The notes under the pieces were generated by a model. That model saw only the letters and a list, made by a program, of their open reading frames with translations, had not been told where the DNA came from and searched no databases. The translations under genes and the position numbers were made by a program. From contig JADJBL010000002.1 in the NCBI GenBank assembly GCA_016703765.1, positions 186,001-250,000 of the forward strand: 64,000 bases of DNA, in the 5' to 3' direction. Position 1 is the first letter of the stretch. Each line of letters begins with the position of its first letter. This DNA is from Saprospirales bacterium (lineage in GTDB: Bacteria; Bacteroidota; Bacteroidia; Chitinophagales; Saprospiraceae). Shown piece after piece: positions 14,358-32,326 of this stretch.

Positions 14358-14465
14358 AGTGTCCTTTTTTTAGGACACTGATTGGTTAAGATTCATTATG
14401 ACTGCTTATGATCCACGCCGGAATGATCATAAAAAATCATAAATGGTCTTAATCAATCAGTGTCC
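14358..14465 (-). promoter_or_regulatory. Leader with two mutually exclusive hairpins before the TonB receptor
   Basis: Read on the minus strand, GGACACTGATTG..TTAAGA (14465-14447) can pair over about 19 bases, one mismatch, with TCTTAACCAATCAGTGTCC (14391-14373). The last bases of that second arm (AGTGTCC) can instead pair with GGACACT at 14364-14358, which includes the purine-rich AAAGGA and abuts the ATG. The first fold frees the start region and the second hides it. Confidence 0.55.
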
Positions 14466-14472
14466 ATAAAAC

Positions 14473-16804: not shown

Positions 16805-19800
16805 ATGAAATTTCTGAAATCGCTGGCAAACAGAGCTTTTTCTACCTCTGCTGCCGGCTTGTACATTTTGCTATTTGCCATCGCTATCGCCGTAGCCACC
16901 TTCGTCGAAAACGACTTTGGCACCAGCTCGGCGCAAAAGGTAATCTTTAAGTCGCGGTGGTTTGAACTGTTGCTGGTCCTGTTTGGCATTACGTTGATCG
17001 TCAACATAATCCGGTTTCGGATGATCCAGAATAAGAAGTGGCCCCTGCTCACCTTCCACTCGGCTTTTGTCATCGTGCTGATCGGTGCGGGAGTGACCCG
17101 GTATTATGGCAGCGAGGGCATGATGCATATTCGCGAAGGCAGCGCCTCCAATTCGTTTTTGTCCGCCGAGTCCTATCTCCAATTCGAGGCGATCCATCAA
17201 GGGGAAAAATACGTCTTCGACGAACCGGTGCTCTTTGCCACCCTGGGGAATAACCATTTTAAAAAATCATACTTACTGGGCGATCGGGAAGTGCAGGTGG
17301 AGGTGATGGATTTTGTGCCCAATCCGGCGGAGGTGATGACGGAAGCAGCGGACGGCCTACCTACCTTTAAGGTCGTCGTTGGGGGTATGAACGGGAGGGA
17401 AGAGTATTTTGTCAAACCCGGCGACCGGGTTCCCATCAACGGCACGCTCTTCAATTTCGGCAACCCGGAAGAGGCGGGCGCCTTCAATGTGAAATACGAA
17501 GAAGGGAAGCTGTTTTTTAAAGCCGACGTTCCCTTTACCCAAATGCAGATGGCCACCCAAACCAGGGACACCCTTCTGCCCGGCGATTATCGCCCCCTGA
17601 TGCTGCGCAGTCTTTATTCCAGCGGCTCTCAGAGTTTTGTGATCGGAGATTTCAATTCAAAAGGGAAGGTGGAGCTCCGTTCTTCCTCCACTAAAATGAC
17701 CAGCGCAAGTCTAGGCGCCCTCCACATGAAGATCAGCCCCGGAGGCAAGGAGCAGGAGGTATATGTGGTCGGCAGCCAGGGCGTGAAAGGCCGGCCCAGG
17801 GTCTTGTCGTTTGACAATACCAGTTTTGCGGTATCCTACGGCTCCAGGGAGGTCTTACTGCCCTTTTCCATTCAATGCCACGATTTTATCATGGAGCGCT
17901 ACCCGGGCACCGACAACGCTTCTTCCTATGCCAGCGAGGTCACCCTGGTGGACCCCGGGGCAAACGTCCGCAAAGCCCAGCGGATCTACATGAACCATAT
18001 CCTGAACTACAACGGCTACCGATTTTTTCAATCCTCCTTCGACCAGGATGAACTGGGTACCTACCTGAGCGTCAACCACGATTTTTTGGGCACCTGGATC
18101 TCCTACACCGGCTATTTTTTGCTGACGCTGGGCATGATCCTGACCCTGGTCAGCCGCAATACCCGATTCCGGCAACTGGCTGAGAATATCAAGAAAATGC
18201 GGTTGGCGGAAAGCTCCTTTTCCATCCTGATCCTGGCCGGTTTGTTGGCCTCTCCGACCATTGGCCATACCGCCCCGCCCTACAACTTCAACCTGCCGAT
18301 GGTTAATAACGAGCATGCGGCCGAATTCGGAAAATTATGGATGCAGGACCACCGCGGGCGCATGAAACCCATGAATACTTACGCCGGCGAAGTGCTCCGT
18401 AAACTGTCCAGAAAGGAAACACTATACGGGCTGACGGCAGAACAGATCATCCTCGGCATGGCAGCCTCCCCGGGCGACTGGTACGATGTGCCCCTCATCA
18501 AGATCGGCAAACACGAGAAGATCAGAGATATCCTCAAACCTACTGGTGAGCTGGCCACGTACAACGACTTTTTCGATGAAAACGGCGATTATAAATTGAA
18601 AGAACTCGTCCGAAACGCCTATAACGCCCAGCCCAGAGAGCGCGGAGTCCTGGAGAAGGAATTGCTGAAACTGGATGAAAGGGTCAATATCACCAGCATG
18701 GTCTTCTCCGGATCCTTTATGCGGGTGTTTCCCGTGCCGGGCGACCAGACCAACCATTGGCAGGCGCCGGCTGAAAGCGGTCACACACACAATGCCAGCA
18801 GCAACAGCGCTTTTTCGGATAAATTTTATACAGCATACATCCCCACGCTCCAAAAAGCACTCGACAACAATGACTGGAACCTGGCCGATCAATTGATCGC
18901 CGAACTGGGCGTCTTTCAGCAAAAAAACGGAGGCGCCATTCTGCCATCCAAAGCCAAAGGGAATGCGGAGCTTTTTTTGAATACGCTCAACGTGTTCGGC
19001 AGGGCCGGCAAAATGTACGGCCTGCTGGGGCTCGCCTTTTTGGGGCTGCTTTTTACCTCTGTGTTTAAACCCAGCCTAAAGCTGAAATGGCCCAGCCGGA
19101 TCGCCTTCGGCCTGTTGGCCTTCACCTTTGCCGCGCACACGCTCGGCCTGGGGCTGCGTTGGTACGTTTCCGGCCGCGCGCCCTGGAGCAACGGATACGA
19201 ATCCATGATCTACATCGGGTGGACGACGGTGCTCGCCGGACTGATCTTTTCGAGAAAATCCATGGGAGGCCTTGCGGCTACTTCGGTGCTGGCCTCCACC
19301 ATCCTGATGGTTGCGGGGCTGAGCTGGCTCGACCCGGAAATTACCCCTCTGGTGCCGGTATTGAAATCTTACTGGCTGACCATTCACGTATCCCTGGAGG
19401 CCGGGAGCTACGGATTTTTGCTGCTGGGGGCGATCATCGGCGTGCTCAACCTGATCTTCATGATCCTGGCTACGCAGAATAACAAGAAGAACGTGTACAG
19501 GATCATAAAGGAGATGTCCTACATCAGCGAAATGACGCTGATCGGGGGACTGTTCATGGTGAGCATCGGCACCTATCTGGGCGGGGTTTGGGCCAACGAA
19601 TCCTGGGGAAGGTACTGGGGCTGGGACGCCAAGGAAACCTGGGCGCTTGTGACGGTGTTGGTGTATTCCTTCATCCTCCACATGCGTTTCATCCCCGGTC
19701 TGCGGGGCGTGTACGCCTTCAATGTAGCTTCGTTGTTCGGCCTGGCCTCGGTGATGATGACCTACTTCGGCGTTAACTATTACCTTTCCGGCCTGCATTC

Positions 19801-19921
19801 CTACGCCGCAGGTGACCCCGTTCCGATACCAACTTTTGTGTATTACACCGTAGCCGCGCTGCTGGCTATCAGCGCCCTGGCTTATTGGAGGTACAGGGCA
19901 GTTAGTAAGTTGATAAGTTAA
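16805..19921 (+). CDS. ccsBA: Cytochrome c biogenesis protein CcsBA (ResB-CcsA fusion)
   Basis: 1038 residues. The N-terminal ResB/CcsB half has membrane spans near residues 17-35, 53-72 and 82-102 (LTFHSAFVIVLIGAGVTRYYG) and a large periplasmic domain. The C-terminal CcsA half begins near residue 735 and carries the tryptophan-rich heme-handling motif WGRYWGWDAKETWAL (about 933-947) with conserved periplasmic histidines. CcsBA exports heme and attaches it to CxxCH sites in System II maturation; Bacteroidota carry this long fused form with an insert between halves. Its place beside the multiheme operon fits its role, since those cytochromes hold about 99 CxxCH sites. It converges on the operon across paired hairpins. 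Confidence 0.93.
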   Translation: MKFLKSLANRAFSTSAAGLYILLFAIAIAVATFVENDFGTSSAQKVIFKSRWFELLLVLFGITLIVNIIRFRMIQNKKWPLLTFHSAFVIVLIGAGVTRYYGSEGMMHIREGSASNSFLSAESYLQFEAIHQGEKYVFDEPVLFATLGNNHFKKSYLLGDREVQVEVMDFVPNPAEVMTEAADGLPTFKVVVGGMNGREEYFVKPGDRVPINGTLFNFGNPEEAGAFNVKYEEGKLFFKADVPFTQMQMATQTRDTLLPGDYRPLMLRSLYSSGSQSFVIGDFNSKGKVELRSSSTKMTSASLGALHMKISPGGKEQEVYVVGSQGVKGRPRVLSFDNTSFAVSYGSREVLLPFSIQCHDFIMERYPGTDNASSYASEVTLVDPGANVRKAQRIYMNHILNYNGYRFFQSSFDQDELGTYLSVNHDFLGTWISYTGYFLLTLGMILTLVSRNTRFRQLAENIKKMRLAESSFSILILAGLLASPTIGHTAPPYNFNLPMVNNEHAAEFGKLWMQDHRGRMKPMNTYAGEVLRKLSRKETLYGLTAEQIILGMAASPGDWYDVPLIKIGKHEKIRDILKPTGELATYNDFFDENGDYKLKELVRNAYNAQPRERGVLEKELLKLDERVNITSMVFSGSFMRVFPVPGDQTNHWQAPAESGHTHNASSNSAFSDKFYTAYIPTLQKALDNNDWNLADQLIAELGVFQQKNGGAILPSKAKGNAELFLNTLNVFGRAGKMYGLLGLAFLGLLFTSVFKPSLKLKWPSRIAFGLLAFTFAAHTLGLGLRWYVSGRAPWSNGYESMIYIGWTTVLAGLIFSRKSMGGLAATSVLASTILMVAGLSWLDPEITPLVPVLKSYWLTIHVSLEAGSYGFLLLGAIIGVLNLIFMILATQNNKKNVYRIIKEMSYISEMTLIGGLFMVSIGTYLGGVWANESWGRYWGWDAKETWALVTVLVYSFILHMRFIPGLRGVYAFNVASLFGLASVMMTYFGVNYYLSGLHSYAAGDPVPIPTFVYYTVAALLAISALAYWRYRAVSKLIS

Positions 19922-19950: not shown

Positions 19951-20025
19951 TTTAAAAAGTGCACGGCCTGCGGCCGCGCACTTTTTAAACAACTTTTGCC
20001 CGCCGCAGGCGGGCAAAAGTTGTTT
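19951..20025. terminator. Two back-to-back hairpins between convergent genes
   Basis: TTTAAAAAGTGC / GCACTTTTTAAA (19951-19989) is a bidirectional terminator-like stem with A and T flanks. It is followed by AAACAACTTTTGCCCGCC / GGCGGGCAAAAGTTGTTT (19987-20025), an 18-bp stem on a GCA loop. They separate ccsBA (+) from the cytochrome operon (-). The second hairpin and its flank recur before hypE at 54488-54548. Confidence 0.8.
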
Positions 20026-20048
20026 AATTAATTTTGTTAAAGAGCTTA

Positions 20049-20150
20049 ACTCAATCACTCAATCACTCAATCACTCAATCACTCAATCACTCAATCACTC
20101 AATCACTCAATCAACTCAATCACTCAATCACTCAATCACTCAATCACTCA
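20049..20150. repeat. 8-base tandem repeat (TCAATCAC)n
   Basis: About a dozen copies of the octamer TCAATCAC with one irregular unit in the middle. It ends in the last codons of the OB-fold lipoprotein gene. All units point the same way, unlike the palindromic word repeats elsewhere. Confidence 0.9.
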
Positions 20151-20908
20151 ATGTTAGCCCCTTCCATAATGACATCGTAGCGGTATCCCGCGCCGAAGTC
20201 TTTATTGAGGGCGATGGCGCCTTTAAGGGTGACGATGGAACCGAGGGGGACCACCTGATCTGTGGTCACGGTCAGGTCCGGGTTGCCGGCTGAGCCGTCC
20301 TGGAGGTGTACCCAGTTCCGGCCCATGATCATCGGGTTGACCTTGACGCATTTCCCGGTTATTTTGACGACTTTTCCCTCGTATTTTTTGAGGTTGGCCA
20401 TCAGCTCCGAAATTTTAATTGCGCCTTTGGAAGGCTCGACCTTGACCGGGCCTTCCAGCACGGCATTTTCTGCCTCCAGATTGGACAGGGTTTCCTCCAC
20501 AGCAGAGCCGCCTGCGCCAATGGGCTGGTCGGATATGCCGGAGACCAGATATAGGGTTTCGAATACCCTGTTGTATTCCCGGCTCAGAAAGTTCTTTTTC
20601 ATCAAGCCGCCCGCGTAGTAGTAGGTATTTCCAACCTTGACCTCCGATTTGGGAATGGCGATCCAGAATTCTTCTTCATTTTCCGTTACGCGGAGGTAGG
20701 TATATTTTTCGGTATCCAGGACCTCTTTCGCCACGACCTTGTGCTCCTGGTCTGGGGAAGGGTCCCCGGCCATATCTCCGGCCTGTGGGAACACCACGCC
20801 CGTTCCATCGGAAACGGATTGACCTTCAATCACTTCCGGCTTTGAATTACAGGCAGCCAGGAGGAGGCCGAACAGAAACAAGGCTGCAAAAAATACGGGG
20901 TTTTTCAT
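20144..20908 (-). CDS. NrfJ-like OB-fold lipoprotein of the cytochrome operon
   Basis: 254 residues. The lipoprotein signal ends LFGLLLAAC (Cys 20). Two similar small beta domains follow. The first (about residues 60-125) has TEKYTYLRVTENEEEFWIAI and GGLMKKNFLSREYNRVFETL, a pattern seen in NrfJ-related proteins near cytochromes. The second (about 170-250) is an OB-fold of the tRNA_anti-like type: GKVVKITGKCVKVN, NWVHLQDGS, VVPLGSIVTLKGAIALNKDF. It is the last gene of the multiheme operon, 21 bases after the barrel gene. A role in assembly or cofactor handling for the cytochromes is inference from the neighbourhood. Confidence 0.75.
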   Translation of the reverse strand: MKNPVFFAALFLFGLLLAACNSKPEVIEGQSVSDGTGVVFPQAGDMAGDPSPDQEHKVVAKEVLDTEKYTYLRVTENEEEFWIAIPKSEVKVGNTYYYAGGLMKKNFLSREYNRVFETLYLVSGISDQPIGAGGSAVEETLSNLEAENAVLEGPVKVEPSKGAIKISELMANLKKYEGKVVKITGKCVKVNPMIMGRNWVHLQDGSAGNPDLTVTTDQVVPLGSIVTLKGAIALNKDFGAGYRYDVIMEGANIE

Positions 20909-20929
20909 TTTCTTGAAATTGATTTCTTT

Positions 20930-22522
20930 TTAAAACCGCTGAATGACCTTTGTGTTGAACAAATGGTAAATTCTCTTTTCGTCATCGAGGGCGCCTTCGT
21001 AAAACACATAAAACCCCAGGTTGCGGGTGATCCGCAGGTTGAAGTCCACCCCTCCTATGTATTGGCTGGTGGTATATTCGTAATTCTTGTAATGGTAATC
21101 CACCATCCGCACGTACAAGTCCCCGCTCAGTTTGCCTTTGACGATCTCCCTGGAGATCCGCAACCCGAACATTTTGCTGTTGAGGTAACCCGTTTGGAGC
21201 AGGTTTGCAGTAAGGCTGGCAGAAATATTGAGCAAAGGGACCCTGCTGAAGGTCAGGAAGCTGTTGAGGTTCTTGGAATCGTTTTCCCCGCTTTTCTGAA
21301 ACCGCCAGCTGGCATTTACGCCCCAGGTAATCGTTTTGAAAGGCCGGAGGTTAAAGCCGACGCGCATGCCCTGGCGGGTTTCATCCTCGATGAGCTGGTC
21401 GATATAATTTTTATACGACTCGTAGTAAATGACGTTTTTCCTCGTGTCATAGGAGGAGGACAGGCTCAGTTTTTTGGAAACCCGATACTGCAGGGAGACG
21501 AACAAATTGGTGAGACTAAGGGTGTTTTTCGCTTCGTTATTGATATTCTCAAAGAGATCTACTTCAAACGAACTGAAAACGTTGAGGTTTTTTACCAGCG
21601 AATTGGAATGCTGGAAATAAATAAACCGCCTGTCGGTGAGGAAATGATTCCTTTGATCGACAATAGCCAGGGTGCTCTGATAAAATTTGTTCGGATTGGC
21701 CGATACGTGCCCAATGTAGGCGCCTGCCTGTAAAAGGTTGGGATCAAAGCTGTAGTCCTGATAATTCGGCCTTGCCCCGGCGATGGCGCCGACGAGAAAA
21801 TTTTTCTTAAAAGCCAGCTCAAACTGGAGGCCGTCGATGGCGCCCATGCTCGATATTCTGGAATTAATTTTCCTTCCAAGGCTCAGGCTCGAATTTTTGC
21901 TGAAATCGTACCGGACGGACAGGGAATACACCTTGAGTGCATTGTACAGATTATCCTGCACATCCGCCCATTCGCCGAGGGAATGGCGAAATGTGATATT
22001 GCATTCGGTGGAAAACCGCGAGTTTCCAATATGATTCCCTCGCATAGTAAAAGCATAACGCATCCGGTGTGACGGGCTTTCTTCCGACAAATGGCTGTAT
22101 GAGGCCGCGGAGACCCTCCCGCTAATGCGCTGCTTCAATTCTTCCTCCTCGTCCTGTGGGGGAGGAGCGGCTTCGGTAATTACCTCCACTGGCTTTTCCT
22201 CCTGGGGTTTTGCAACCTCGGCCCTTACCATCCTTTTGGCGGATACGACTGCCCCGACCTCCAATTTATCAAACACATCGAGCGGGGTACAGACACATGA
22301 AATGGAAGATTTATTGCTGACGAGCAGCGTAGGAACCATTTTTCCATCCCTGGCCACATAAAGGGTATCGCCCGATTTGATGGCTTCGGTGGTCCCGAAT
22401 TTCACGTACACATTTTGGGAAGAGATAAAGGAGACCGTCCCTTTGTCATACTTGATCTCGATCTGCGCTGTTGCGGAGAAGGAGATTAAGGCAAAAATGG
22501 CTATATTCAAAAGGCGTCTCAT
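20930..22522 (-). CDS. Outer-membrane beta-barrel, probable porin partner of the multiheme cytochromes
   Basis: About 530 residues from the Met at 22522 (MRRLLNIAIFALISFSATAQ, a clean signal peptide); an upstream Met at 22546 only adds eight polar residues. Residues 20-100 form a small beta domain containing a Cys pair (SCVCTPL). A charged, proline-rich linker (KPQEEKPVEV, PPPQDEEEE) follows. From about residue 135 to the end, alternating amphipathic strands (SLSVRYDFSKNSSLSLGRKI, LRITRNLGFYVFYEGA) and the final Phe indicate a barrel. It starts 26 bases after the stop of the 76-heme gene. By analogy with MtrB-type porin-cytochrome conduits it may let the cytochrome cross the outer membrane; sequence similarity to MtrB is not evident, so this is inference. 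Confidence 0.75.
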   Translation of the reverse strand: MRRLLNIAIFALISFSATAQIEIKYDKGTVSFISSQNVYVKFGTTEAIKSGDTLYVARDGKMVPTLLVSNKSSISCVCTPLDVFDKLEVGAVVSAKRMVRAEVAKPQEEKPVEVITEAAPPPQDEEEELKQRISGRVSAASYSHLSEESPSHRMRYAFTMRGNHIGNSRFSTECNITFRHSLGEWADVQDNLYNALKVYSLSVRYDFSKNSSLSLGRKINSRISSMGAIDGLQFELAFKKNFLVGAIAGARPNYQDYSFDPNLLQAGAYIGHVSANPNKFYQSTLAIVDQRNHFLTDRRFIYFQHSNSLVKNLNVFSSFEVDLFENINNEAKNTLSLTNLFVSLQYRVSKKLSLSSSYDTRKNVIYYESYKNYIDQLIEDETRQGMRVGFNLRPFKTITWGVNASWRFQKSGENDSKNLNSFLTFSRVPLLNISASLTANLLQTGYLNSKMFGLRISREIVKGKLSGDLYVRMVDYHYKNYEYTTSQYIGGVDFNLRITRNLGFYVFYEGALDDEKRIYHLFNTKVIQRF

Positions 22523-22548
22523 CGGTCTTTGACTTTGCACTGTCAATG

Positions 22549-25500
22549 TTAATTATCACCGTTTGGGTGACAGCTATAACAAGCAGTACTGGTGTATGAA
22601 TACCCCTGCACTCCCTGGTGGTCATTATTGACTTCGTTCTGGTTGTCGTGTTCGTGGCAATCTATGCAACTGAATATGGCATAATTGCCCGGTACTATAT
22701 GGCAATCGACGCACTGATCCCATTCTCCGTTGTGGTTTCCGCTGTAGATCGGGAAATATTGATCGTCGTGGTCCCAGGTCGATGGCGTCCAGGAGCTCTG
22801 TGTATGGCAATCCTGACAGGTGGTCGGGAATTGCGCCGACTGGTGGTCGGGGTCATTCGTGTTGTTATACTCGCTTTGGTGGCAACCGAAGCAGGTAGAG
22901 GGCGTATTGTTGTAATTGCCGTTGTGGCAGGCGTCGCAATCGTTTGCGATGGCGGCATGGGCCCCGATCAACTGGTAATAGTTATTGTGAATGGGGAATG
23001 TGGCCGGCATCCAGTCGGGGGCCGTGGTATGGCACATCGCACAATTGGTAGGTATCCCCAATGCCTGGTGGTTGGGATTGGTGCTTTGTGCATAATCCGC
23101 CGTATGGCAGCCCTGGCAGGTGTTGGGCGTATTATTGTAATTTCCGTTGATGTGGCATGCCGCACAGTCGTTGGCTATCGGTAAATGTGCCCCGGTGAGG
23201 GGGTAATAGATATTGTGGTTAAAACTGGAAGGCGTCCAGGCATTCTGGCTGTGGCAACTTGCGCAATCGGTAGGGAACTGCGCCACCTGGTGATCCGGGT
23301 CATTGGTATTGTTGTAATCGCTTTGGTGGCACCCGAAGCAGGTGTTTGGCGTATTGTTGTAATTGCCGTTGTGGCAGGCGTCGCAATCGTTTGCGATGGC
23401 GGCATGGGCCCCGATCAACTGGTAATAATTATTGTGGGTGGGGAAAGCGGCCGGCATCCAGTCGGGGGCTGTAGTGTGGCACATCCCACAATTTGTGGGA
23501 ATACCTAAGGCCTGGTGGTTGGGATTGGTGCTTTGTGCATAATCCGCCGTATGGCAGCCCTGGCAGGTGTTGGGCGTATTATTGTAATTCCCGTTGATGT
23601 GGCAGGCTGCACAGTCGTTGGCTATCGGTAAATGTGCCCCGGTGAGGGGGTAATAGATATTGTGGTTAAAACTGGAAGGCGTCCAGGCATTCTGACTGTG
23701 GCAACTCGCGCAATCGGTAGGGAATTGCCCAACCTGATGATCCGGGTCATTGGTATTGTTATAATCGGTTTGGTGGCACCCGAAGCAGGTGTTGGGCGTA
23801 TTGTTGTAATTGCCGTTGTGGCAGGCGTCGCAATCGTTGGCAATTGCTGCGTGCGCCCCCATCAGCACATAATAATTATTGTGGGTGGGGAAAGCGGCCG
23901 GCATCCAGTCGGGGGCTGTAGTGTGGCACATCCCACAATTTGTGGGAATACCCAATGCCTGGTGGTTTGGGTTGGTGCTTTGTGCATAATCCGCGGTATG
24001 GCAGCCTTGGCAGGTATTGGGCGTATTGTCGTAATTCCCGTTGATGTGGCAGGCCGCACAGTCGTTGGCAATAGGAATATGTGCCCCGGTGAGGGGGTAA
24101 TAGATATTGTGGTTAAAACTGGAAGGCGTCCAGGCATTCTGGCTGTGGCAACTTGCGCAATCGGTAGGGAACTGCGCCACCTGGTGATCCGGGTCATTGG
24201 TATCGTTGTAATCGCTTTGGTGGCACCCGAAGCAGGTGTTTGGCGTATTGTTGTAATTGCCGTTGTGGCAGGCGTCGCAATCGTTCGCGATTGTTGCGTG
24301 CGCTCCCATGAGCACATAATAATCGTCGTGGGTGGGGAAGGCGGCGGGCATCCAGCCTGGGGCTGTAGTGTGGCAGGTTGCACAGTTGGTGGAAATTCCC
24401 AAGGCCTGGTGGTTGGGATTGGCGCTTTGCGCATAATCCGCAGCGTGGCAGCCCCGGCAAGTGTTGGGGGTATTGTCGTAATTTCCGTTGATGTGGCAGG
24501 CCGCACAGTCGTTGGCAATAGGTATATGTGCTCCCGTCAGGGGATAAAAATTATCGTGGTCGAAACTGGAAGGAACCCAGGCGTTTTCCGTGTGGCAACT
24601 CTGACAATCGGTCGGAAATTGCGCCGCCTGGTGGTCGGGGTTGGTGGTTTGATTATAATCATTTAGATGGCAGCCTGCGCAAGTGCTTGGCGTATTGCTG
24701 TAATTCCCGTTATGGCAGGCCGCGCAATCCTCTGCGATGGCCGCGTGGGCGCCATTCAAGGCATAAAAATCATTGTGGATGGGGAAAGTCGCTGGCGCCC
24801 AGTCGGGGGCGGTGGTATGGCACATCGCGCAATCCATTGGCAGCCCGATCAAGCCATGGTTTGGATTGGTACTCTGGGAATAATCCGTGGCATGACAACT
24901 GGCACAAGTATTGGGCGTGTTGACATAATCCCCATTGTGGCAGGCGTCGCAGTCATTTGCAACGGCCGTGTGGGCCCCGTCCAGGGGGTAGAAGTTATCG
25001 TGTATCCCAAAAGTGGCAGGCTCCCAGCCCGGCGCCGTAGTGTGGCAGGAGGCACAATCCGTGGGAAGGCCTAGCATAACGTGGCTAGGGTTGAGTGACA
25101 AGTTGTAATCGTTGGAATGGCACGCATTGCAATCTGTAGGAGTGCCCTGGTAGCCGCCGGCATGGCAATCGATACAGTCCGCTAAGGTATTGGCGCCGGT
25201 CAGCGGAAAATTGGTGTTGTTGTGATCAAAATTTATATCGGAATCTCCCGTAGGGTGACAGGCAAGGCAGGCCGGACTATTGTATGAATAGCCGCCCACC
25301 CCGTTGTGCTGGTCATTGGTCTCGGGATTGGTATGACAGGTGGTACAGGTAAACACGGCATAATCCGAAGGATTGGTATGGCACTCCACGCATTGATCCC
25401 ACTCCCCGTTGTGCGACCCGCTATAGATCGGAAAATACATACCGTCGTGGTCGAAAGTGGATGGCGTCCAAGCATTTTCCGTATGGCAAGCGGCACAGTC

Positions 25501-28308
25501 GGTGGAAAATTGAGCCGCTTCGTGGTCGGGCTCAGCAGTCTGGTTGTATTCCGTGGAATGGCAGCCTACGCAGGTGTTGGGGGTGTTGTTGTAGTCCCCG
25601 TTGTGGCAGACGGCGCAATCGTTTGCGATGGCTGCATGGGCCCCATTCAGGGCATAGACGCTGTTGTGGTCGGCAAACATCGCGGGGTTCCAGCCCTGAA
25701 CGGTGGTATGGCAGGAAGCGCAATCATTCGAAAAACCCAAGGCATTATGGTTCGGGTTGGTCGTCTGGTTGAAGTTGCTTTCATGGCAGGCCAGGCATTC
25801 GGTAGGGGTGTTTTGAAACCCGCCTGAGTGGCATTCCAGGCAATCCGTCGTGATGTGTTCGCCCGTCAGGGGGAATCCGGTTGCGTTGTGGTTGAAATTA
25901 AAATCGGCATCCCCGGTAGGGTGACAGGCAAGGCAGGCGGGGCTGTTGTAGGAATAGCCATTCACCCCGTCGTGATCGTCATCTGTCTGCGGATTACTGT
26001 GGCAGGTAATGCAGGTGAACACGCTGTAATTCGATGGGTTGGTATGACAGTCCGTGCATTGATCCCACTCCCCGTCGTGTTTTCCGCTATATATCGGGAA
26101 ATATTGCCCGTCGTGGTCGAACGTGGAGGGCTCCCAGGCATTTTCCGTATGGCAACTTTCGCAATCGGTAGAAAATTGAAGCGCCTGGTGATCCGGATTG
26201 TTGGTGTTGTTGAAATCGGTCAAATGGCAGCCTACACAGGTATTGGGCGTATTGTTGTAGTTCCCGTTGTGGCAGGCTGCACAGTCGTTGGCGATTTGCG
26301 CGTGGGCTCCGTTGAGCTGGTAGAAAGTATTGTGGACCGGGAAAGTGGCCGGATCCCAATCCGGCGAAGTGGTATGGCACATCGCGCAATCGGTGGACAG
26401 ACCCAGCGCCTCGTGATCCGGGTTGGTCGTTTGGCTGAATTCGGTCGTATGACACGCCGCGCAATCCATCGGGGTGCCCTCGAAACCACCGGCATGGCAA
26501 GCGATACAATCCGTCGTGGTATGAGCGCCGGTCAGCGGGAAATTGGTGCTGTTGTGGTTGAAATTAAAATCCGCCTCCCCGGTGGGGTGGCAGGCCAGGC
26601 AAGCGGGGCTGTTGTAGGAGTATCCATTCACCCCGTCGTGGTCGTTATTCGTTCCGGGATTGGTATGGCAGGTGATACAAGTGAACACGCTATAGTCCGA
26701 CGGATTGGTATGGCAATCAGCGCATTGATTCCACTCCCCGTCGTGCTTCCCGCTGTATATGGGGAAGTATTGCCCGTCGTGGTCGAACGTGGCAGGCTGC
26801 CAGGCCGATTCGGAATGGCAACTGGCGCAATCGGTAGAAAACTGGAGGTCGCCGTGGTCCGGCTCTGTGGTCTGGTTGAAATCGTCTAAATGGCAGCCTA
26901 CGCAGGTGTTGGGGGTGTTGTTGTAATCCCCGTTGTGGCAGGCGGCGCAGTCGATTTGCGTGTGGGCTCCGTTGAGCTGATAATATTCATTATGGATATC
27001 GAAGGTGGCCGGCATCCAGCCGGGGTCGGTGGTATGGCAAGATGCGCAATCTGTGGGAAAGCCCAGGGCGACGTGGTCGGGGTTGTCGGTCTGGTTAAAA
27101 TCGCCCGTGTGGCAGGCCGCACAGGCGGTGGGCGTTCCGGCATACCCGTTTGCGTGGCATTCGATGCAATCGACGCCGATGTGGGCGCCCGTGAGGGGGA
27201 AATCGGTCGAATTATGGTCGAAACCTCCTTCGGCATCTCCGGTGGGATGACATACCAGACAGGCAGGGTCTTCGTAAACGTAGCCGCTCACACCGTCGTG
27301 GCTGTTGTTGGTTTCGGGGTTGAGGTGGCAATTGGTACAAGTGAACACGCCGTAGTCGGAGGAATTGGAGTGGCAGTCGGAACATTTATCCCACTGTCCC
27401 TGGTGTTTTCCACTGTAGATCGGGAAAAAACTGGCGTCGTGTTCCAAAAACTCGGCGGGCATCCACCCGGGATCGGTCGTATGGCAGGATGCGCAGTCGG
27501 TGGGGAAGTTAGCGCTTTGGTGGTTTGGATCGTTGGTATTATTGAAATCGGTCTGGTGGCAGGCCACGCAGGTATTGGGCGTATTTCCGAAATCTCCCGA
27601 AGTGTGGCACTGTGTGCAATCGGAGATATCGTGGCCCTTGGTAAGGGGAAAGAAATCGTGGTTGACCTGACTGGTAGTCCAGTCGAATTTAAACACGTCG
27701 TGGCATTCGCTGCAGTCTTTTGAAAAACCCGCCTCCTGATGCTTGGGATGGAGTGTGGCGGTATAATCGTCGAGGTGGCAATTGATGCAATCATTCCCGA
27801 TTCGGTCAAAGCGGAGTGCAGTTTCCGAGGTATGACATTCAAAACAACCCGCCGCGCTGTGGGCGCCCACCAGGGGGAATCCATTTTCGTAGTGCAGCTC
27901 GCTGATATTGTCTACCAGCCAGTTTTCGGAGTCGTGGCATCTGGCGCAATCAGCCCCCACGGTTTGCTGGTGCATGTCGGTATGGCAGGAAATGCATTCC
28001 GGACTGGCTTCGGAGAATATGAGGCTTTGGTGGCAGCTTCTGCAATCGACAGAGATATGTTGCCCAAGCAGCGGGTAATCCGTTTTATTGTGATGAAAGC
28101 GGGCCGTATCGGTGACCAGCTCCCAGCCGGTTGCAGCAGAAAACTTCGGTTTTGCCGGTGAGTTCAATTCCCAGGAATTATTGATAACCCACCCCTCTGT
28201 CGAATGGCAAGCGGCACAGTCGATCTTCAGATCGGGCCCGTGGGGCGACTGGGAAAGCAGGTTGACCGCAAGCCCGAGGAATACTATTATTTGTGACAGT
28301 CTGCGCAT
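22549..28308 (-). CDS. Giant multiheme c-type cytochrome, about 76 CxxCH motifs
   Basis: 1919 residues with a Sec signal (MRRLSQIIVFLGLAVNLLSQ) and no lipobox, membrane span or sorting domain; the chain ends CYSCHPNGDN. By hand count it has 76 CxxCH motifs, about one per 25 residues, with many extra His that could be distal ligands (NHN, TGAH, NPDH). The basic module is about 74 residues with three motifs: TxCxSCH..W.P..F.H...Y.L.GAH...DC.ACH.GNYNNTPNTC.GCH. Modules form longer repeats: 222 residues (nine motifs) in the N-terminal half and 149 residues (six motifs) in the C-terminal half. A periplasmic or surface electron wire is the natural reading (inference). It overlaps the 23-heme gene by 22 bases. 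The acidic, Asn/Thr-rich sequence suggests an exported, soluble chain. Confidence 0.92.
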   Translation of the reverse strand: MRRLSQIIVFLGLAVNLLSQSPHGPDLKIDCAACHSTEGWVINNSWELNSPAKPKFSAATGWELVTDTARFHHNKTDYPLLGQHISVDCRSCHQSLIFSEASPECISCHTDMHQQTVGADCARCHDSENWLVDNISELHYENGFPLVGAHSAAGCFECHTSETALRFDRIGNDCINCHLDDYTATLHPKHQEAGFSKDCSECHDVFKFDWTTSQVNHDFFPLTKGHDISDCTQCHTSGDFGNTPNTCVACHQTDFNNTNDPNHQSANFPTDCASCHTTDPGWMPAEFLEHDASFFPIYSGKHQGQWDKCSDCHSNSSDYGVFTCTNCHLNPETNNSHDGVSGYVYEDPACLVCHPTGDAEGGFDHNSTDFPLTGAHIGVDCIECHANGYAGTPTACAACHTGDFNQTDNPDHVALGFPTDCASCHTTDPGWMPATFDIHNEYYQLNGAHTQIDCAACHNGDYNNTPNTCVGCHLDDFNQTTEPDHGDLQFSTDCASCHSESAWQPATFDHDGQYFPIYSGKHDGEWNQCADCHTNPSDYSVFTCITCHTNPGTNNDHDGVNGYSYNSPACLACHPTGEADFNFNHNSTNFPLTGAHTTTDCIACHAGGFEGTPMDCAACHTTEFSQTTNPDHEALGLSTDCAMCHTTSPDWDPATFPVHNTFYQLNGAHAQIANDCAACHNGNYNNTPNTCVGCHLTDFNNTNNPDHQALQFSTDCESCHTENAWEPSTFDHDGQYFPIYSGKHDGEWDQCTDCHTNPSNYSVFTCITCHSNPQTDDDHDGVNGYSYNSPACLACHPTGDADFNFNHNATGFPLTGEHITTDCLECHSGGFQNTPTECLACHESNFNQTTNPNHNALGFSNDCASCHTTVQGWNPAMFADHNSVYALNGAHAAIANDCAVCHNGDYNNTPNTCVGCHSTEYNQTAEPDHEAAQFSTDCAACHTENAWTPSTFDHDGMYFPIYSGSHNGEWDQCVECHTNPSDYAVFTCTTCHTNPETNDQHNGVGGYSYNSPACLACHPTGDSDINFDHNNTNFPLTGANTLADCIDCHAGGYQGTPTDCNACHSNDYNLSLNPSHVMLGLPTDCASCHTTAPGWEPATFGIHDNFYPLDGAHTAVANDCDACHNGDYVNTPNTCASCHATDYSQSTNPNHGLIGLPMDCAMCHTTAPDWAPATFPIHNDFYALNGAHAAIAEDCAACHNGNYSNTPSTCAGCHLNDYNQTTNPDHQAAQFPTDCQSCHTENAWVPSSFDHDNFYPLTGAHIPIANDCAACHINGNYDNTPNTCRGCHAADYAQSANPNHQALGISTNCATCHTTAPGWMPAAFPTHDDYYVLMGAHATIANDCDACHNGNYNNTPNTCFGCHQSDYNDTNDPDHQVAQFPTDCASCHSQNAWTPSSFNHNIYYPLTGAHIPIANDCAACHINGNYDNTPNTCQGCHTADYAQSTNPNHQALGIPTNCGMCHTTAPDWMPAAFPTHNNYYVLMGAHAAIANDCDACHNGNYNNTPNTCFGCHQTDYNNTNDPDHQVGQFPTDCASCHSQNAWTPSSFNHNIYYPLTGAHLPIANDCAACHINGNYNNTPNTCQGCHTADYAQSTNPNHQALGIPTNCGMCHTTAPDWMPAAFPTHNNYYQLIGAHAAIANDCDACHNGNYNNTPNTCFGCHQSDYNNTNDPDHQVAQFPTDCASCHSQNAWTPSSFNHNIYYPLTGAHLPIANDCAACHINGNYNNTPNTCQGCHTADYAQSTNPNHQALGIPTNCAMCHTTAPDWMPATFPIHNNYYQLIGAHAAIANDCDACHNGNYNNTPSTCFGCHQSEYNNTNDPDHQSAQFPTTCQDCHTQSSWTPSTWDHDDQYFPIYSGNHNGEWDQCVDCHIVPGNYAIFSCIDCHEHDNQNEVNNDHQGVQGYSYTSTACYSCHPNGDN
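23181..24521 (-). repeat. Three near-identical 447-bp coding repeats in the giant cytochrome gene
   Basis: The same landmark (a GTAAATGTGC-like decamer followed by CCCGGTGAGGGGG) recurs at 23181, 23628, 24075 and 24522, exactly 447 bases apart. Each unit encodes 149 residues with six CxxCH motifs. Flanking units are more diverged. Confidence 0.9.
25418..27409 (-). repeat. Three 660-666-bp coding repeats in the giant cytochrome gene
   Basis: The landmark CCGCTAT/CCGCTGT followed by AGATCGGGAA-like sequence recurs at 25418, 26084 and 26750 (666 apart) and 27410 (660 apart; two codons shorter at HTQIDCAACH). Each encodes about 222 residues with nine CxxCH motifs. Confidence 0.88.
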
Positions 28309-30101
28309 TCGAAACTTTTGAACTTATACTGCACGATTATTTTTCCGTTGATTTCTGTGCCCTTATGACAGGCGCTGCATTCTACATTGACGTGTTTTCC
28401 GTCCAGCTTGAAAGCCGCCCGGTCGTGGTTGAATTTGCTGGCTTCCCATTTTTCAAATGCATGGCACTCCTCGCAACTGGTCACACCGTTCTTTTCAAAT
28501 TGGCGGTCATGCACATTGTCGTGGCACTGGGTGCAGGTTTGAGTAATTCCAATAAAATTTACTTGGTTTGGAGCCTCGTCTTTGACATGACATGCCGAAC
28601 AGTTTTGGCGGGCATGCGCACCTTGGAGCTGATAACCGGTCAGATCGTGATTGAAAAGGTTATCCTGCCAGGAGGTACTTTGATGGCAATTTTGACAAGT
28701 TTGGCCAGGGTAGAATTTGACGTCGAGGTGTCCTTCGTGGATGTCGTCGTGACAATCTACGCATTTTTCGCCAATCTTTCGGAAACTCCATTTAGCATTT
28801 TGCAGATGGCACTCAAAACAAGGCGTGGCGGCGTGTGCGCCGTCTAATTTGAATTTAGTCTTGTTATGGTCGGATAGCGTGAACAGGCTCAGTTGGAAGC
28901 CGTCGACCGAATGGCATTTTCCGCAATCGGGCGCCACGCCGTTCGTAACCAACTGGCCCTGGTGGTAATCAGTATGACAGGAGGAGCAGTATTTGTGGGG
29001 TAGGGGATCGGTAAACCTGGTTTTATGGCAGGCCTTGCAATCCACCGTCTTGTGCTTGCCCAACAATTGGAAATTCGTCAGGCCGTGGTTGAAACCCTCC
29101 ATGCCGCCCTGATAGCGGAAAGATTCTTCGTTGTGGCAGTCCGCACATTTGCTGCCGAACTTATTTTGGTGAACATCCTCGTGACAAGTGGCGCATTGCT
29201 GGGTCTGCACCCCGGACCTGTCGAGGAAGACGGTAACGGGGGTGGCGTCCGGTTTATGACATTCGAAACAATCCACTCGTTTGTGTTTTCCTTTGAGCGC
29301 GAATTTGGTCTTGCTGTGGTTAAACCGATTCATACCGGCAAACTGGGTAAAGGATTCCTCCGTGTGGCACTCCTTGCAATTGGAGAGCAGTTCGTTGAAA
29401 TGGACGTCTTCGTGGCAGCTGCTGCAATTGGAGAAGGGGACGTCGGCAAAGCGCTGGAATTCCGCCCCGTTCTTCGTTTCCTTCAGATGGCATTCAATGC
29501 ATTCGACGGTTTTGTGTTTTCCCGACAGGGCAAAAGCTGTTTTGTCGTGGTTGAATTTTCCGGCAGGGACAAATTTCTCCGTGGTGTGGCAACTGGCGCA
29601 GTCGGTCGACAGGGTCGCCTGGTGGTAATCCTGGTGGCAGCTGGCGCATTTTTGATCGAGTCCCAGGTACGTTTTGGGTTTCTTTTTCAACTCGCGGTCG
29701 CCGATGTAATCCGCTTTGTGGCATTCCCGGCAATCGGTGGTCTTGTGCGCTCCGGTCAGATCGTACCCGGTGAGGGTGTGGTTAAACAGGTCCTCGTTGA
29801 GGTGCACCATATCGAAATTGCGGCCGTGGTGGTCGCTATGGCATTCGGCGCATTCTTTTCCCCTGACTTCCTTGGAGGCGTGGTAACCCAGCTTTTTGTC
29901 CACCCGGCTTTTAATCTCCTTATGACATTCCAGGCACTTGTCGTTCGAAACCTTTTCGCCCAGGGTATGGCATTTGGTGCAATTCGACATGCCTTCCAAT
30001 GCAGCATGCGCCTTGGCCAGGTCGCCCGGAGATATCTGTGCCGATACCCGGAGGAGGCTGAAAAGGAGCAAAAAAGCAATTGGAAGTATGTTCGGTTTCA
30101 T
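28287..30101 (-). CDS. 23-heme c-type cytochrome
   Basis: 604 residues with a Sec signal (MKPNILPIAFLLLFSLLRVSAQ). Hand count gives 23 CxxCH motifs; the last lies at the very C-terminus (CADCHK). Modules of the form FNHxxTxFxLxGKHKxVxCxECHK alternate with CxSCHEDVHxxxF..C..CH, so the fold differs in detail from the giant cytochrome but follows the same plan. Lys-rich linkers make it more basic than its 76-heme neighbour, which would favour an electrostatic contact between them (inference). It lies between the membrane flavoprotein gene (20 bases) and the giant cytochrome gene (22-base overlap), suggesting a periplasmic relay between the inner membrane and the giant chain. Confidence 0.93.
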   Translation of the reverse strand: MKPNILPIAFLLLFSLLRVSAQISPGDLAKAHAALEGMSNCTKCHTLGEKVSNDKCLECHKEIKSRVDKKLGYHASKEVRGKECAECHSDHHGRNFDMVHLNEDLFNHTLTGYDLTGAHKTTDCRECHKADYIGDRELKKKPKTYLGLDQKCASCHQDYHQATLSTDCASCHTTEKFVPAGKFNHDKTAFALSGKHKTVECIECHLKETKNGAEFQRFADVPFSNCSSCHEDVHFNELLSNCKECHTEESFTQFAGMNRFNHSKTKFALKGKHKRVDCFECHKPDATPVTVFLDRSGVQTQQCATCHEDVHQNKFGSKCADCHNEESFRYQGGMEGFNHGLTNFQLLGKHKTVDCKACHKTRFTDPLPHKYCSSCHTDYHQGQLVTNGVAPDCGKCHSVDGFQLSLFTLSDHNKTKFKLDGAHAATPCFECHLQNAKWSFRKIGEKCVDCHDDIHEGHLDVKFYPGQTCQNCHQSTSWQDNLFNHDLTGYQLQGAHARQNCSACHVKDEAPNQVNFIGITQTCTQCHDNVHDRQFEKNGVTSCEECHAFEKWEASKFNHDRAAFKLDGKHVNVECSACHKGTEINGKIIVQYKFKSFECADCHK

Positions 30102-30121
30102 CGCAGGCCCTCTCTCTTACG

Positions 30122-31450
30122 CTAATGATGTTTTTTCATGGTGTAACCAAATCGCTTGGATATCTGTATGCCCGCTTTTTCCAGGAAACCGGTCGGCAAT
30201 TCGCCCCCGGCGAAAATGTAGACCAGGTCGTTCTTCAGGGTAAAATGACTTCCGCCTTCCTCGTGGGAGAGTACGGTTTGATCGGGTTCTATTTTTACGA
30301 GGTTCGTCTTGTACTTGATATCCACCAGGCCTTTTTCGACGGCGGCCTGCAGGTTTTCCCTGTTTTTGGGTTTCAGGCGGCTAAAGTTTTCCTGGCGGTA
30401 GGAGATGACCACCCGGTTTTGCTCCGACAGCGAAAGCGCCGCTTCGATGGCCGAATCGCCGCCGCCGACTACCACCACGTTTTTGCCGTTGATGTTTTCC
30501 GGTTCCAGAAGGCGGTAGGCTACTTTTTCGAGCGTTTCTCCGGGGATGTTTAATTTCCGGGGGCTTCCGCGCCTGCCGATGGCCAGCAATACGTATTTGG
30601 TCTTGAATTCTTCCCCTGTCAAGGTGGTGACTTTGAAATGTCCGTTTTCGAGGCGGATGTTTTCGACTTTCATATGCTCCCGGATCTCGATGTCGTTCCT
30701 GGAAAGTACGGTGTTCCAGAGATCGAGGAGTTCGGACTTGCTGGTATTGAACAGTTTCACCTTGCCATAGAGAGGCAGGTCCATGGGGGCGGTCATGACG
30801 ATCTTCGAGCGGGGAAAGGTAAAGACGGTTCCGCCGAGGGTGTCTTGCTCGAGGGTCACAAATTTTAGTTTGTGTTTTTTCGCGGTCAGGGATGCGGAGA
30901 TGCCGGCGGGGCCTGCGCCCACGATGACGAGGTCTAAGACGGAGGGGTCGTTCCGAATGCCGGCTTTTATGATGTGTTCCACTGCGGCCTGTCCCTGCTC
31001 TACGCTGTTTTTGATCAGGCCCATTCCGCCCAGTTCGCCGGCGATAAATATTCCGGGGATATTTGTCTCGAAATTTTCATTGATATGGGGAAGGTCTACG
31101 CCCCGTTTTTCCGTTCCGATGACCAGGGAAATGGCTTCCACCGGGCAGCTGTGGAAGCAGGCGCCGTGGCCCACGCAATGGGAGGCGTTGATCAGGGTCG
31201 CTTTTCCGTTCACGATCCCCAGGATATCCTGCTCCGGGCACGCGGCTACGCAAGCCCCGCTTTTAATGCAAGTATTCACATCAATGACCGGATGGAGCGA
31301 CACGGGTTCGAACAGGCCCTCCTGCTTTGCCTTCTCGATTTTTGACTCGACCACCCGGGAAGCCTTTTTCAGCTTTCTCAAATAAATGACTATGACTGCG
31401 AGGCAGGCCAAAAGGACGATTCCGTAGGTGATTGCTTTTTCCAAAAGCAT
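30122..31450 (-). CDS. Membrane-anchored ferredoxin-flavoprotein oxidoreductase
   Basis: 442 residues. One N-terminal membrane span (ITYGIVLLACLAVIVIYL, residues 7-24). Residues 55-115 form a two-cluster ferredoxin domain: CIKSGACVAACP (Cys 61, 67, 71) and CVGHGACFHSCP (Cys 92, 98, 102). In both motifs the usual second Cys is replaced, by Ser 64 and His 95. A thioredoxin-reductase-like flavoprotein follows: FAD motif LVIVGAGPAGISAS (about 173) and NAD(P) motif VVVVGGGDSAIEAAL (about 327), but no CxxC disulfide site. It probably moves electrons between NAD(P)H, FAD and Fe-S centres on the cytoplasmic face. The stop is 20 bases from the 23-heme gene and the start 9 bases from the membrane protein gene, so the operon link is strong. 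Confidence 0.85.
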   Translation of the reverse strand: MLLEKAITYGIVLLACLAVIVIYLRKLKKASRVVESKIEKAKQEGLFEPVSLHPVIDVNTCIKSGACVAACPEQDILGIVNGKATLINASHCVGHGACFHSCPVEAISLVIGTEKRGVDLPHINENFETNIPGIFIAGELGGMGLIKNSVEQGQAAVEHIIKAGIRNDPSVLDLVIVGAGPAGISASLTAKKHKLKFVTLEQDTLGGTVFTFPRSKIVMTAPMDLPLYGKVKLFNTSKSELLDLWNTVLSRNDIEIREHMKVENIRLENGHFKVTTLTGEEFKTKYVLLAIGRRGSPRKLNIPGETLEKVAYRLLEPENINGKNVVVVGGGDSAIEAALSLSEQNRVVISYRQENFSRLKPKNRENLQAAVEKGLVDIKYKTNLVKIEPDQTVLSHEEGGSHFTLKNDLVYIFAGGELPTGFLEKAGIQISKRFGYTMKKHH

Positions 31451-31459
31451 GTCAGAAAA

Positions 31460-32326
31460 TTAAAAGATCCATTTATACCCGAAGATTATGGTGATAATAA
31501 CATGTATTATCATGATAACCAGCATGATAATCGCAAACGGCAAATGCGCCACGTGCCAGTATTTGAATAGTTGCTGCATGGTTTGAAGCCGGTCGATCCG
31601 GTTATTCAACGCCATTTCGTTTTTGATCAGCTTGCTTACCTTGAGAACATCTGAGTTGGCAAGCCTGTTTCTTCGCAGAATTTCTTTAACGCCGGCGATG
31701 GTCCGTTGGTCTTCGAAATAATGTTTGACCATCCTGCTCAGTAAACTCCCCTCCTCCCGGATCTTGGCGCGGGTCGATTCCAATATGGCGTGATAGCTCT
31801 CCTGGTCCAGGCTGTAAGAATTTTGGAGGAGGGCGCCAATATTGATCTTCATTTCATGCACCTCGTGAAGGCTCAGTTCCCTGCCCTCGATCGTCCTGGG
31901 TATCTGAATGTAGATAAACCTGCCGATGATGCCGCTGGCCACCACCGCCACCATACTCCAAAAACTGATGGAGACAATGCCTCCAAACTTGAATGCCGTG
32001 TGAAACAGGATCATAACAGGCCCCAGGCTGCACAAAAAAATGTGAAACTCCAGCCAGTATTTCAGCCTGCCGAGCCGGGAGAGAAACCGGTAGCGTTTTC
32101 TGGCGATGTAGGAAAATACCCCGAAAATAATCAACAAGGTACCGACGATACCCAGGCCATGACCGAAAATCCCGCTGGGCTTGAACAGGTCGTGGTCGGG
32201 GTGGTAAAACCTTTCGACTATGCTGGTGCTGTAATAAGGAATGCCTCGGTAAAACAAATAGACCGTAGTCAGGACGACGACGGAGATAAAACTATATATG
32301 TAAAATCGGTGGGCCAGCTGGGACAT
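31460..32326 (-). CDS. Integral membrane protein, probable b-type cytochrome of the operon
   Basis: 288 residues with about five hydrophobic spans: 10-28, 53-72 (GHGLGIVGTLLIIFGVFSYIA), 92-110 (FHIFLCSLGPVMILFHTAF), 118-137 and 265-283 (HLPFAIIMLVIMIIHVIITI). Histidines inside or at the ends of spans (EFHIF, LFHTAF, WHVAH, MIIHV) are placed as in two-heme b cytochromes. Between spans four and five lies a helical cytoplasmic region of about 120 residues. I do not recognise a named family. As first gene of the operon it could exchange electrons with quinone and pass them to or from the ferredoxin-flavoprotein (inference). Confidence 0.7.
   Translation of the reverse strand: MSQLAHRFYIYSFISVVVLTTVYLFYRGIPYYSTSIVERFYHPDHDLFKPSGIFGHGLGIVGTLLIIFGVFSYIARKRYRFLSRLGRLKYWLEFHIFLCSLGPVMILFHTAFKFGGIVSISFWSMVAVVASGIIGRFIYIQIPRTIEGRELSLHEVHEMKINIGALLQNSYSLDQESYHAILESTRAKIREEGSLLSRMVKHYFEDQRTIAGVKEILRRNRLANSDVLKVSKLIKNEMALNNRIDRLQTMQQLFKYWHVAHLPFAIIMLVIMIIHVIITIIFGYKWIF

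Follow-up and report, generated by a model that had tools for sequence, protein, structure and literature searches.

The question raised by the locus described here is whether a member of the Bacteroidota carries, within one operon, a complete line for the export of electrons from the cytoplasm through both membranes to the outside of the cell. The locus lies in a stretch of 64,000 nucleotides from a Saprospirales bacterium (positions 186,001 to 250,000 of contig JADJBL010000002.1, assembly GCA_016703765.1), referred to below as the window, and consists of six open reading frames (ORFs), A to F, all on the minus strand and read from 32326 to 20144 (Table 1). An earlier note on this DNA, made from the letters alone, had described six closely spaced genes on one strand, for a His-rich membrane protein, a membrane-anchored ferredoxin-flavoprotein, cytochromes with 23 and 76 hemes, an outer-membrane barrel and an OB-fold lipoprotein. 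All six ORFs are there, with 9 bases between A and B, 20 between B and C, 26 between D and E and 21 between E and F, and with an overlap of 22 bases between C and D. The D/E figure assumes that E starts with the ATG at 22522, its probable start, the listed ORF (20930-22546) beginning with an upstream TTG at 22546. Separate promoters for the parts, which the note had named as a sign against its proposal, gain no support, since 12 promoter-like sites were found on the two strands between 19800 and 32700 and 12.0 were expected from shuffled sequence, so that there is no excess.

We put at about 0.65 the probability that this operon encodes an electron export line across both membranes, fed by reduced nicotinamide adenine dinucleotide (phosphate), NAD(P)H, and containing a length-variable wire made of a single chain and no MtrB homologue. 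The path would run from B to A to C to D, with D and E acting jointly in the outer membrane, and flow would be outward, the electrons leaving for an acceptor outside the cell, for instance minerals, humics, other cells or a distant oxidant. The earlier note had claimed a complete trans-envelope conduit; the conserved module, the linkage of its genes and the cofactor motifs all hold, whereas extracellular electron transfer is a step that we infer.

That the genes belong together is the best established part of the argument. GTDB genome contigs were scanned with A, which yielded 382 relatives, and the 80 best were retained as loci; their record labels are Bacteroidota, with one Chlorobiota, and 80 related loci rule out chance ORFs. 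B lies directly 3' of A on the same strand in all 80, at a median gap of 9 bases, and the recurrent order is A, B, a C with 20 or 23 hemes, another multiheme cytochrome D and the barrel E. Among the 49 loci with at least 8 kb past A, E lies downstream of A in 39; seven of the other ten stop within a multiheme gene (L004, L007, L010, L012, L025, L070 and L076), L016 stops 198 bases past one, L028 has D-E-F upstream of A-B, and L017 has C but neither D nor E within 10 kb. Where E could be paired with a preceding cytochrome the two are no more than 50 bases apart in 35 of 42 cases. When proteins with at least four heme motifs are excluded, the families found in more than 6 of the 80 loci are B, A, E, F and a CcsBA maturation gene, the last in eight loci (nine with the window copy as query, one of them a match of 71 residues). 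Genes A to E are a conserved module.

The same conclusion was reached from genomes drawn evenly across the phylum, 296 in all, including the seed genome G001, itself a carrier of A. Up to eight candidates for A and four for E were scored per genome, and diverged copies elsewhere may have been missed. A was strong in 29 of the 296 (two further weak matches were not counted) and E was found in 25, every one a genome with A, which has a hypergeometric probability of 2e-32 if kinship and the limited scoring are ignored. In the four genomes with A only (G024, G180, G227 and G298) a diverged E stands beside the cytochromes in the fetched loci, with E-values of 7e-20 to 2e-6 in a small ORF set, so that the link from A to E extends to 29 of 29. 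Co-occurrence of the families, a check that the earlier note had proposed, is thus strongly positive for A and E, whilst F was seen in 16 of the 80 loci.

The cytochromes C and D contain 23 and 76 CXXCH motifs, as the note had counted, and no other Cys; their remaining His residues, 27 in C and 78 in D, are enough for a second axial ligand on each heme. Across 140 proteins with at least 13 motifs, cut ones included, the surplus of such His had a minimum of 0 and a median of 4, which fits bis-His ligation. Of 61 complete copies of C, 39 have 23 motifs and 22 have 20, a fixity that is partly one of definition, C having been called by these counts. The spacing of its motifs is near constant in 14 aligned copies, the 20-heme form lacking one block of three, and genes in the place of C with other counts were seen in L042 (26 motifs), L053 (15) and L085 (16).

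The heme number of D follows a simple rule. For this purpose D was any complete multiheme gene immediately behind a C of 20 or 23 hemes and no more than 400 bases away. Such a gene was available from 47 loci, and its CXXCH count was 3n+1 in 42 of them (13, 16, 19, 22, 25, 28, 31, 34, 37, 43, 46, 49, 61, 64, 67 or 85), a result with a probability of 2e-15 against an expectation of one in three, kinship ignored. Once CX3CH or CX4CH motifs are counted the rule covers 46 of the 47; the D of L057 has 15 motifs, one short of the series. In 12 further, divergent loci 11 copies fit (34, 22, 64, 19, 34, 43, 10, 37, 28, 43 and 22), the exception being 38 in L090, so that counts range from 10 to 85. Because motif spacings at the start of D (16, 16, 34, 19, 25, ~32, 16, 25) and at its end are near constant, units have probably been added in mid-protein. 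Related loci differ by whole units: where A is 95% identical D has 49 and 34 hemes, at 94% 28 and 22, and at 93% 19 and 16, and a pair with identical A has 49 in both. The 447-base repeat in the window copy points to growth by recent tandem duplication. The overlap of C and D is 22 bases in 26 of the 47 loci, 19 in eight and 25 in three, and these recurrent lengths suggest translational coupling. A second multiheme gene stands between D and E, or D and the end of the locus, in nine of the 47. Next to D or E there is often also a distinct cytochrome with 13 hemes, as if D had been split into a short and a long part (L044:15898-16935, L047:15497-16522, L052:17824-18891 and others). The possibility that D is a type IX secreted protein was rejected, no sorting-domain match being found at E up to 0.1.

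In their domains these cytochromes do have known relatives. The C profile matches the dodecaheme cytochrome GSU1996 (3ov0) at 4e-11, and both C (42.3 bits) and D (130.8 bits) pass the cut-off of 30 for PF22113, the MtrC/MtrF heme domain, a match that may stem from the spacing of CXXCH motifs. The c7-type triheme family PF14522 is over its cut-off in nine stretches of C and 14 of D. Cut-offs were not reached for nanowire_3heme TIGR04257 (C 17.1 and D 25.2 of 40 bits), for the MtrA/DmsE-type decaheme family TIGR03508 (38.4 and 36.8 of 192.2) or, by D, for the lone-standing decaheme family TIGR03507 (20.5 of 209.3), and D alone gave no match at 0.001 among PDB sequences. The claim that no part closely resembles Mtr, Omc or Pcc proteins is thereby weakened for C and D; with respect to MtrB/PioB it is supported for E, which has no PF11854 match at E up to 0.1. 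Like the GSU1996-type nanowire cytochromes, which have 12 and 27 hemes, the module cytochromes have heme domains in units of three; they differ in belonging to a conserved operon with a barrel and an inner-membrane part, in the 3n+1 count of most D copies, and in His counts that fit bis-His ligation throughout, where GSU1996, according to the available portion of PMC10138318, has one His-Met heme per domain. OmcS, OmcE and OmcZ filaments are also long chains of close-packed hemes (for OmcS, PMC6584659 in part) but are polymers of small subunits, whereas D would be a single covalent chain with its length set by the gene.

Within the Bacteroidota two reports bear comparison. In the available text of PMC11495043 some cytochromes of the phylum exceed 100 motifs, Saprospiraceae are dominant among the 50 secreted proteins richest in heme from sewage metagenome-assembled genomes (MAGs), and an electron transfer or capacitor role is speculated upon; the likeness to the module lies in the phylum and the richness in heme, and that text describes no operon. 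The Bacteroidetes_1 cluster of an anode-enriched Bacteroidetes MAG, as described in part of PMC8258643, consists of seven genes, six multiheme and one for a barrel, a different gene set from A to F. No description of the operon or of the 3n+1 rule was found among the open-licence papers listed in the searches made, and the main text of PMC11475568 contained none of six Bacteroidota-related terms.

In the export line C would bridge the periplasm, and D, with three-heme repeats between constant ends, would relay electrons in or beside the plugless barrel E in the outer membrane, as its linkage and the model of E suggest, the number of repeats setting its reach or its charge capacity. Another explanation is storage: C and D would form a heme capacitor in the periplasm that A and B charge and that buffers swings between oxic and anoxic conditions, with E and F linked to them but serving a separate function in the outer membrane. 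GSU1996-type repeat cytochromes are indeed described as periplasmic reservoirs or capacitors in Geobacter (PMC10138318, in part) and C matches one of them, the speculation in PMC11495043 extends the idea to Saprospiraceae, the variable heme number fits, and the carriers also encode COX1-family proteins. However, the tight linkage of E to the preceding cytochrome speaks against a separate function, and a plugless barrel would need an occupant if it were not to leak, so that we regard storage as an unlikely account of the whole operon.

The inner end of the proposed export line depends on A and B. A is very probably a protein of the diheme cytochrome b type, its hemes being predicted from the pattern of conserved residues. 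An alignment of eight divergent A proteins, from the window to Sphingobium and Alteromonas and down to 21% identity, has twelve invariant columns, and the sole invariant His are H95, H109, H261 and H275, at a spacing of i+14 in two helices. In an AlphaFold2 model (mean predicted local distance difference test score, pLDDT, 78) with helices at 3-32, 53-78, 88-110, 117-141 and 224-281, the first pair sits on helix 88-110 and the second on 224-281. Two His 14 residues apart on each of two helices form the textbook pattern of a diheme b cytochrome, for example in bc1. The distribution of charges suggests that the N-terminus is inside, that a large cytoplasmic segment precedes the last helix and that one heme lies near each face. 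Family matches are weak: of 50 sequences examined at E up to 10, 48 matched DUF4405, the best at 8.9e-6 and the window copy with 11 bits against a cut-off of 26.7, and ten matched Ni_hydr_CYTB (best 0.012). The VIA-align rows for A appear to be long-helix look-alikes, and its PDB sequence matches appear to be due to chance. Directly after A, in seven of the 12 divergent loci (L081, L083, L084, L086, L089, L090 and L091), there is a protein of ~190-215 residues with an N-terminal hydrophobic stretch.

B begins with a hydrophobic stretch, with positive charges behind it, followed by a dicluster ferredoxin region and a domain for flavin adenine dinucleotide (FAD) and NAD(P). Each iron-sulphur (Fe-S) cluster motif has three Cys in 20 aligned sequences (61, 67, 71 and 92, 98, 102), and the second position, a Cys in the usual motif, is occupied by Ser/Thr 64 and by the invariant His 95; the clusters may be 4Fe-4S with a non-Cys ligand or 3Fe-4S. 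The flavin domain is also unusual. Residues 1-265 of the 316 of the YpdA profile match B at 173-434 of its 442 residues (163.4 of 339.9 bits), leaving eight residues after the match, whilst profile residues 268-311 match B at 121-162, ahead of the main domain (E 0.005). The solved thioredoxin reductase 5nii_A shows the same swap, B 109-155 aligning with 237-283 of the chain. The order in TrxR, in which the C-terminal FAD motif comes last after the FAD and NAD(P) domains, is not that of B. These swap matches are weak, with E-values of 0.002-0.005 for the four best models and 0.09 for the fifth, but they agree, and circular permutation is for that reason the likeliest explanation, making B a likely circularly permuted flavoprotein of TrxR/YpdA type. 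With its two three-Cys motifs it may represent a distinct class of oxidoreductase. A role as thioredoxin or bacillithiol disulfide reductase was rejected, the window B having no CxxC motif and scores far under the equivalog cut-offs.

In the NOX and FRE enzymes, the NADPH oxidases and ferric reductases, a cytosolic FAD-NAD(P)H unit feeds two transmembrane b hemes. A and B would act as a split version of such an enzyme: B, at the cytoplasmic face, would take electrons from NAD(P)H through its FAD and two Fe-S clusters, their sites being predicted from sequence, and A would carry them across the inner membrane on two b hemes. The likeness is one of analogy, and the pair differs in that A and B are two separate proteins, that the flavin domain is of TrxR type, apparently permuted, and has Fe-S motifs, and that the acceptor is presumed to be a cytochrome c. 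The position of B also has a bearing on the direction of flow. Known conduits can work both ways (PMC8258643, in part), and the line might instead bring electrons in, with Fe(II), a cathode or a partner cell as the source and quinone or NAD(P) as the end point, but an FAD/NAD(P) protein at the inner end would make outward flow the downhill direction, and we think uptake improbable.

Two A-like proteins outside the Bacteroidota, from Sphingobium and Alteromonas, support a path from flavin to b heme to c heme, because the flavoprotein is exchanged beside a constant pair of cytochromes. Their hhalign probabilities are 96.1 and 97.8, respectively, that of Alteromonas over the first 120 columns only, and each sits between a multiheme c cytochrome and an FAD protein, the two FAD proteins being of different types and neither of the type of B. 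A plasmid of Sphingobium sp. TomTYG65 (L094 3302-8492) has a three-gene set for a TrxR-type FAD protein with cyclic-nucleotide-binding and Fer4 domains, which keeps the TrxR order, an A-like cytochrome b and a c7-type multiheme protein with an FHA-like start. In pAlt83_a of Alteromonas macleodii (L095 3974-8690) the A-like protein stands between a FAD_binding_6/NAD_binding_1/Fer2 protein and a c3-type cytochrome. Beyond these three genes of a related electron module lie one for a 407-residue protein that matches no Pfam family and then NiFe hydrogenase genes.

At the outer end, E was modelled as a 22-stranded barrel preceded by just a small beta domain (residues 22-99) and a linker, and no plug of the kind found in TonB-dependent receptors was seen in the model. 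The window E had no NCBIfam match and no Pfam match at E up to 0.1, the MtrB/PioB family PF11854 included, and for 63 E sequences the 25 families listed, out of 35, include neither PF11854 nor one of TonB or plug type. The same lack of NCBIfam and Pfam matches applies to an OmbB-type barrel, for which no dedicated model was used. A single PDB sequence match of E, at 0.15, was judged unlikely to be meaningful. The module resembles MtrCAB, PioAB and MtoAB in that multiheme cytochromes, thought to carry electrons across the outer membrane, are encoded beside an outer-membrane barrel. MtrB has 26 strands and the Mtr inner-membrane entry is CymA; here E is modelled with 22, the entry would be a diheme b protein with an FAD/Fe-S protein, and D has up to 85 hemes. 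PF11854 is over its cut-off somewhere in the genome in two of the 29 carriers. On a further proposal E would take up heme, siderophore or polymer, as a receptor or porin, and the cytochromes would reduce the imported metal. This is highly improbable given a barrel with no plug and no TonB or plug family in the matches just described, ushers and porins within two Z units of the best match to its model, and a 76-heme protein that seems disproportionate to assimilatory reduction.

F cannot be regarded as an invariable sixth gene. It occurs in the 16 loci mentioned above (many of the 80 being cut), after E in 11 and divergently upstream of A in five, and in one of the 12 further loci, and it is ruled to be optional. 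A GW/SH3-like domain was found in 14 of 14 F sequences (best 1.3e-6; window copy 19.5 bits, cut-off 21) and the OB-fold family PF01336 in one of the 14, at E 0.16; a PDB sequence search with F gave no match. Of the part labels in the earlier note, those for B, C, D and the barrel are kept, the 'His-rich membrane protein' becomes a cytochrome of diheme b type, and the OB-fold gives way to the GW/SH3-like domain.

The distribution of the module extends to plasmids and cultured strains. When plasmids were searched with A by tblastn, 12 records matched, and the top one was pEMTOL02 of Emticicia oligotrophica DSM 17448, a species described as aerobic, on which the order is CcsBA-A-B-C-D-E-F on one strand; A to F are 37-62% identical to the window proteins, D has 40 hemes, and the gene preceding A is 54% identical to the window CcsBA. 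Beside this cassette, on the other strand (L093 5905-9953), are genes for a Rieske protein, a YceI protein, a DUF5777 barrel, another barrel and a cytochrome-domain protein. Among the best 120 matches of E the named isolates included Labilibaculum euxinus, L. antarcticum and Sunxiuqinia sp. sy24, and the locus was found in Labilibaculum sp. K2S and Aureitalea sp. L0-47. A stronger proposal, which we hold tentatively and at less than even odds, is that the operon is a mobile, largely self-sufficient cassette, with its own CcsBA gene in some copies, in which a covalent wire passes through or docks at the plugless barrel and reaches beyond the cell; its length would be set by tandem gain or loss of units of three or six hemes, so that reach could be tuned over short evolutionary time, and at its inner end there would be an NAD(P)H oxidase split in two, its flavin fold permuted and its Fe-S sites unusual in having three Cys.

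A number of observations weigh against the export line. The barrel model of E has its best matches among the barrels of TonB-dependent receptors, with MtrB (6r2q_B) only 33rd in the Foldseek ranking, and because ushers and OprD-type porins are nearly as close as the receptors the fold alone does not indicate a conduit. For A, no convincing solved relative was found by fold, Foldseek giving no match at E 0.001, although the absence of a known cytochrome b from its fold matches is no evidence for a new fold. Gene order differs in the 12 distant loci, of which six (L081, L082, L087-L090) have B after E and three (L086, L091 and L092) have it between A and C, while in L085 it stands away from A and the fetched stretches of L083 and L084 showed none, and in two of the 29 carriers A and E are apart, on different contigs in G090 and by ~20 kb in G302. 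D could sit wholly in the periplasm, and the donor could be quinol at A and not NAD(P)H at B. COX1-family proteins, which may include nitric oxide reductases, are encoded by all 29 carriers and by 45 of 47 non-carriers (taken from 267), so that the operon is no hallmark of strict anaerobes, and a facultative outlet, for when oxygen is short or distant as in flocs, sediments and biofilms, is to be expected and not an obligate anaerobic respiration. Finally, Labilibaculum reduces Fe(III) and Mn(IV) by a pathway on which there is speculation, for example a NrfHA-like cytochrome, in the available portions of PMC5760507 and PMC9765461, and Labilibaculum manganireducens cannot serve as proof of metal reduction by the operon, since E was found in just four of nine genomes of the genus and the species named among the best 120 matches are the two given above. 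Our guess is that two of the genomes without E are those of the metal-reducing type strains (PMC5760507), in which case metal reduction in the genus need not use E.

Table 1. Positions of the operon genes, their parts and the adjoining features in the window
Feature	Position	Strand	Description
Gene A	31460..32326	-	288 aa, inner-membrane protein with five helices, predicted to be a diheme cytochrome b (His pairs 95/109 and 261/275)
Gene B	30122..31450	-	442 aa, N-terminal hydrophobic anchor, two Fe-S motifs, FAD/NAD(P) domain
B ferredoxin-like region	31127..31294	-	aa 53-108; three Cys per cluster motif, remaining position S/T64 or invariant H95
B segment aa 121-162	30965..31090	-	like C-terminal FAD motif of YpdA/TrxR, placed ahead of FAD/NAD(P) domain
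Gene C	28287..30101	-	604 aa, 23 CXXCH, signal peptide-like start, multiheme cytochrome of near-fixed size
Gene D	22549..28308	-	1919 aa, 76 CXXCH (3n+1), signal peptide-like start, repeat-built multiheme cytochrome
Tandem DNA repeat within D	22822..24833	-	447-base unit (149 aa, six hemes), 4.5 copies, 87% matches
Gene E	20930..22522	-	530 aa, signal peptide-like start, N-terminal beta domain aa 22-99, beta-barrel
E barrel part	20936..22129	-	aa 132-529, 22 strands in model (manual count), no plug domain; mean pLDDT 88, predicted template modelling score (pTM) 0.70
Gene F	20144..20908	-	254 aa, lipoprotein-like N-terminus (invariant C20), GW/SH3-like domain, optional member
Terminator-like hairpin	19985..20027	.	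20 pairs, just past F, between operon end and convergent gene
CcsB/CcsA-type cytochrome c maturation protein	16805..19921	+	1038 aa, convergent neighbour; TIGR03144 173.7 bits, cut-off 187.6

In the window the CcsBA gene ends 222 bases beyond F on the opposite strand. Among named homologues, those nearest to A and E belong to MAGs of Saprospirales and Saprospiraceae. Further away, the minus strand at 11733-15474 encodes a FecR-type regulator and, after it, a protein of 874 residues that has STN and carboxypeptidase-like domains, which together resemble a TonB/FecR signalling pair, and a HypF-type hydrogenase maturation gene (50944-53241, plus strand) suggests that the source organism has a NiFe hydrogenase.

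If the export line exists as proposed, about one in ten of evenly drawn Bacteroidota genomes would hold an apparently uncharacterised route for electrons from the cytoplasm to the outside, several parts of which are unlike Mtr. The 3n+1 heme count is a simple and testable construction law for a protein wire, and a covalent wire of chosen length would be of interest to bioelectronics. Cultured carriers exist, one of them with the whole set on a plasmid, and the role of the giant cytochromes of the Bacteroidota is thereby open to direct test.

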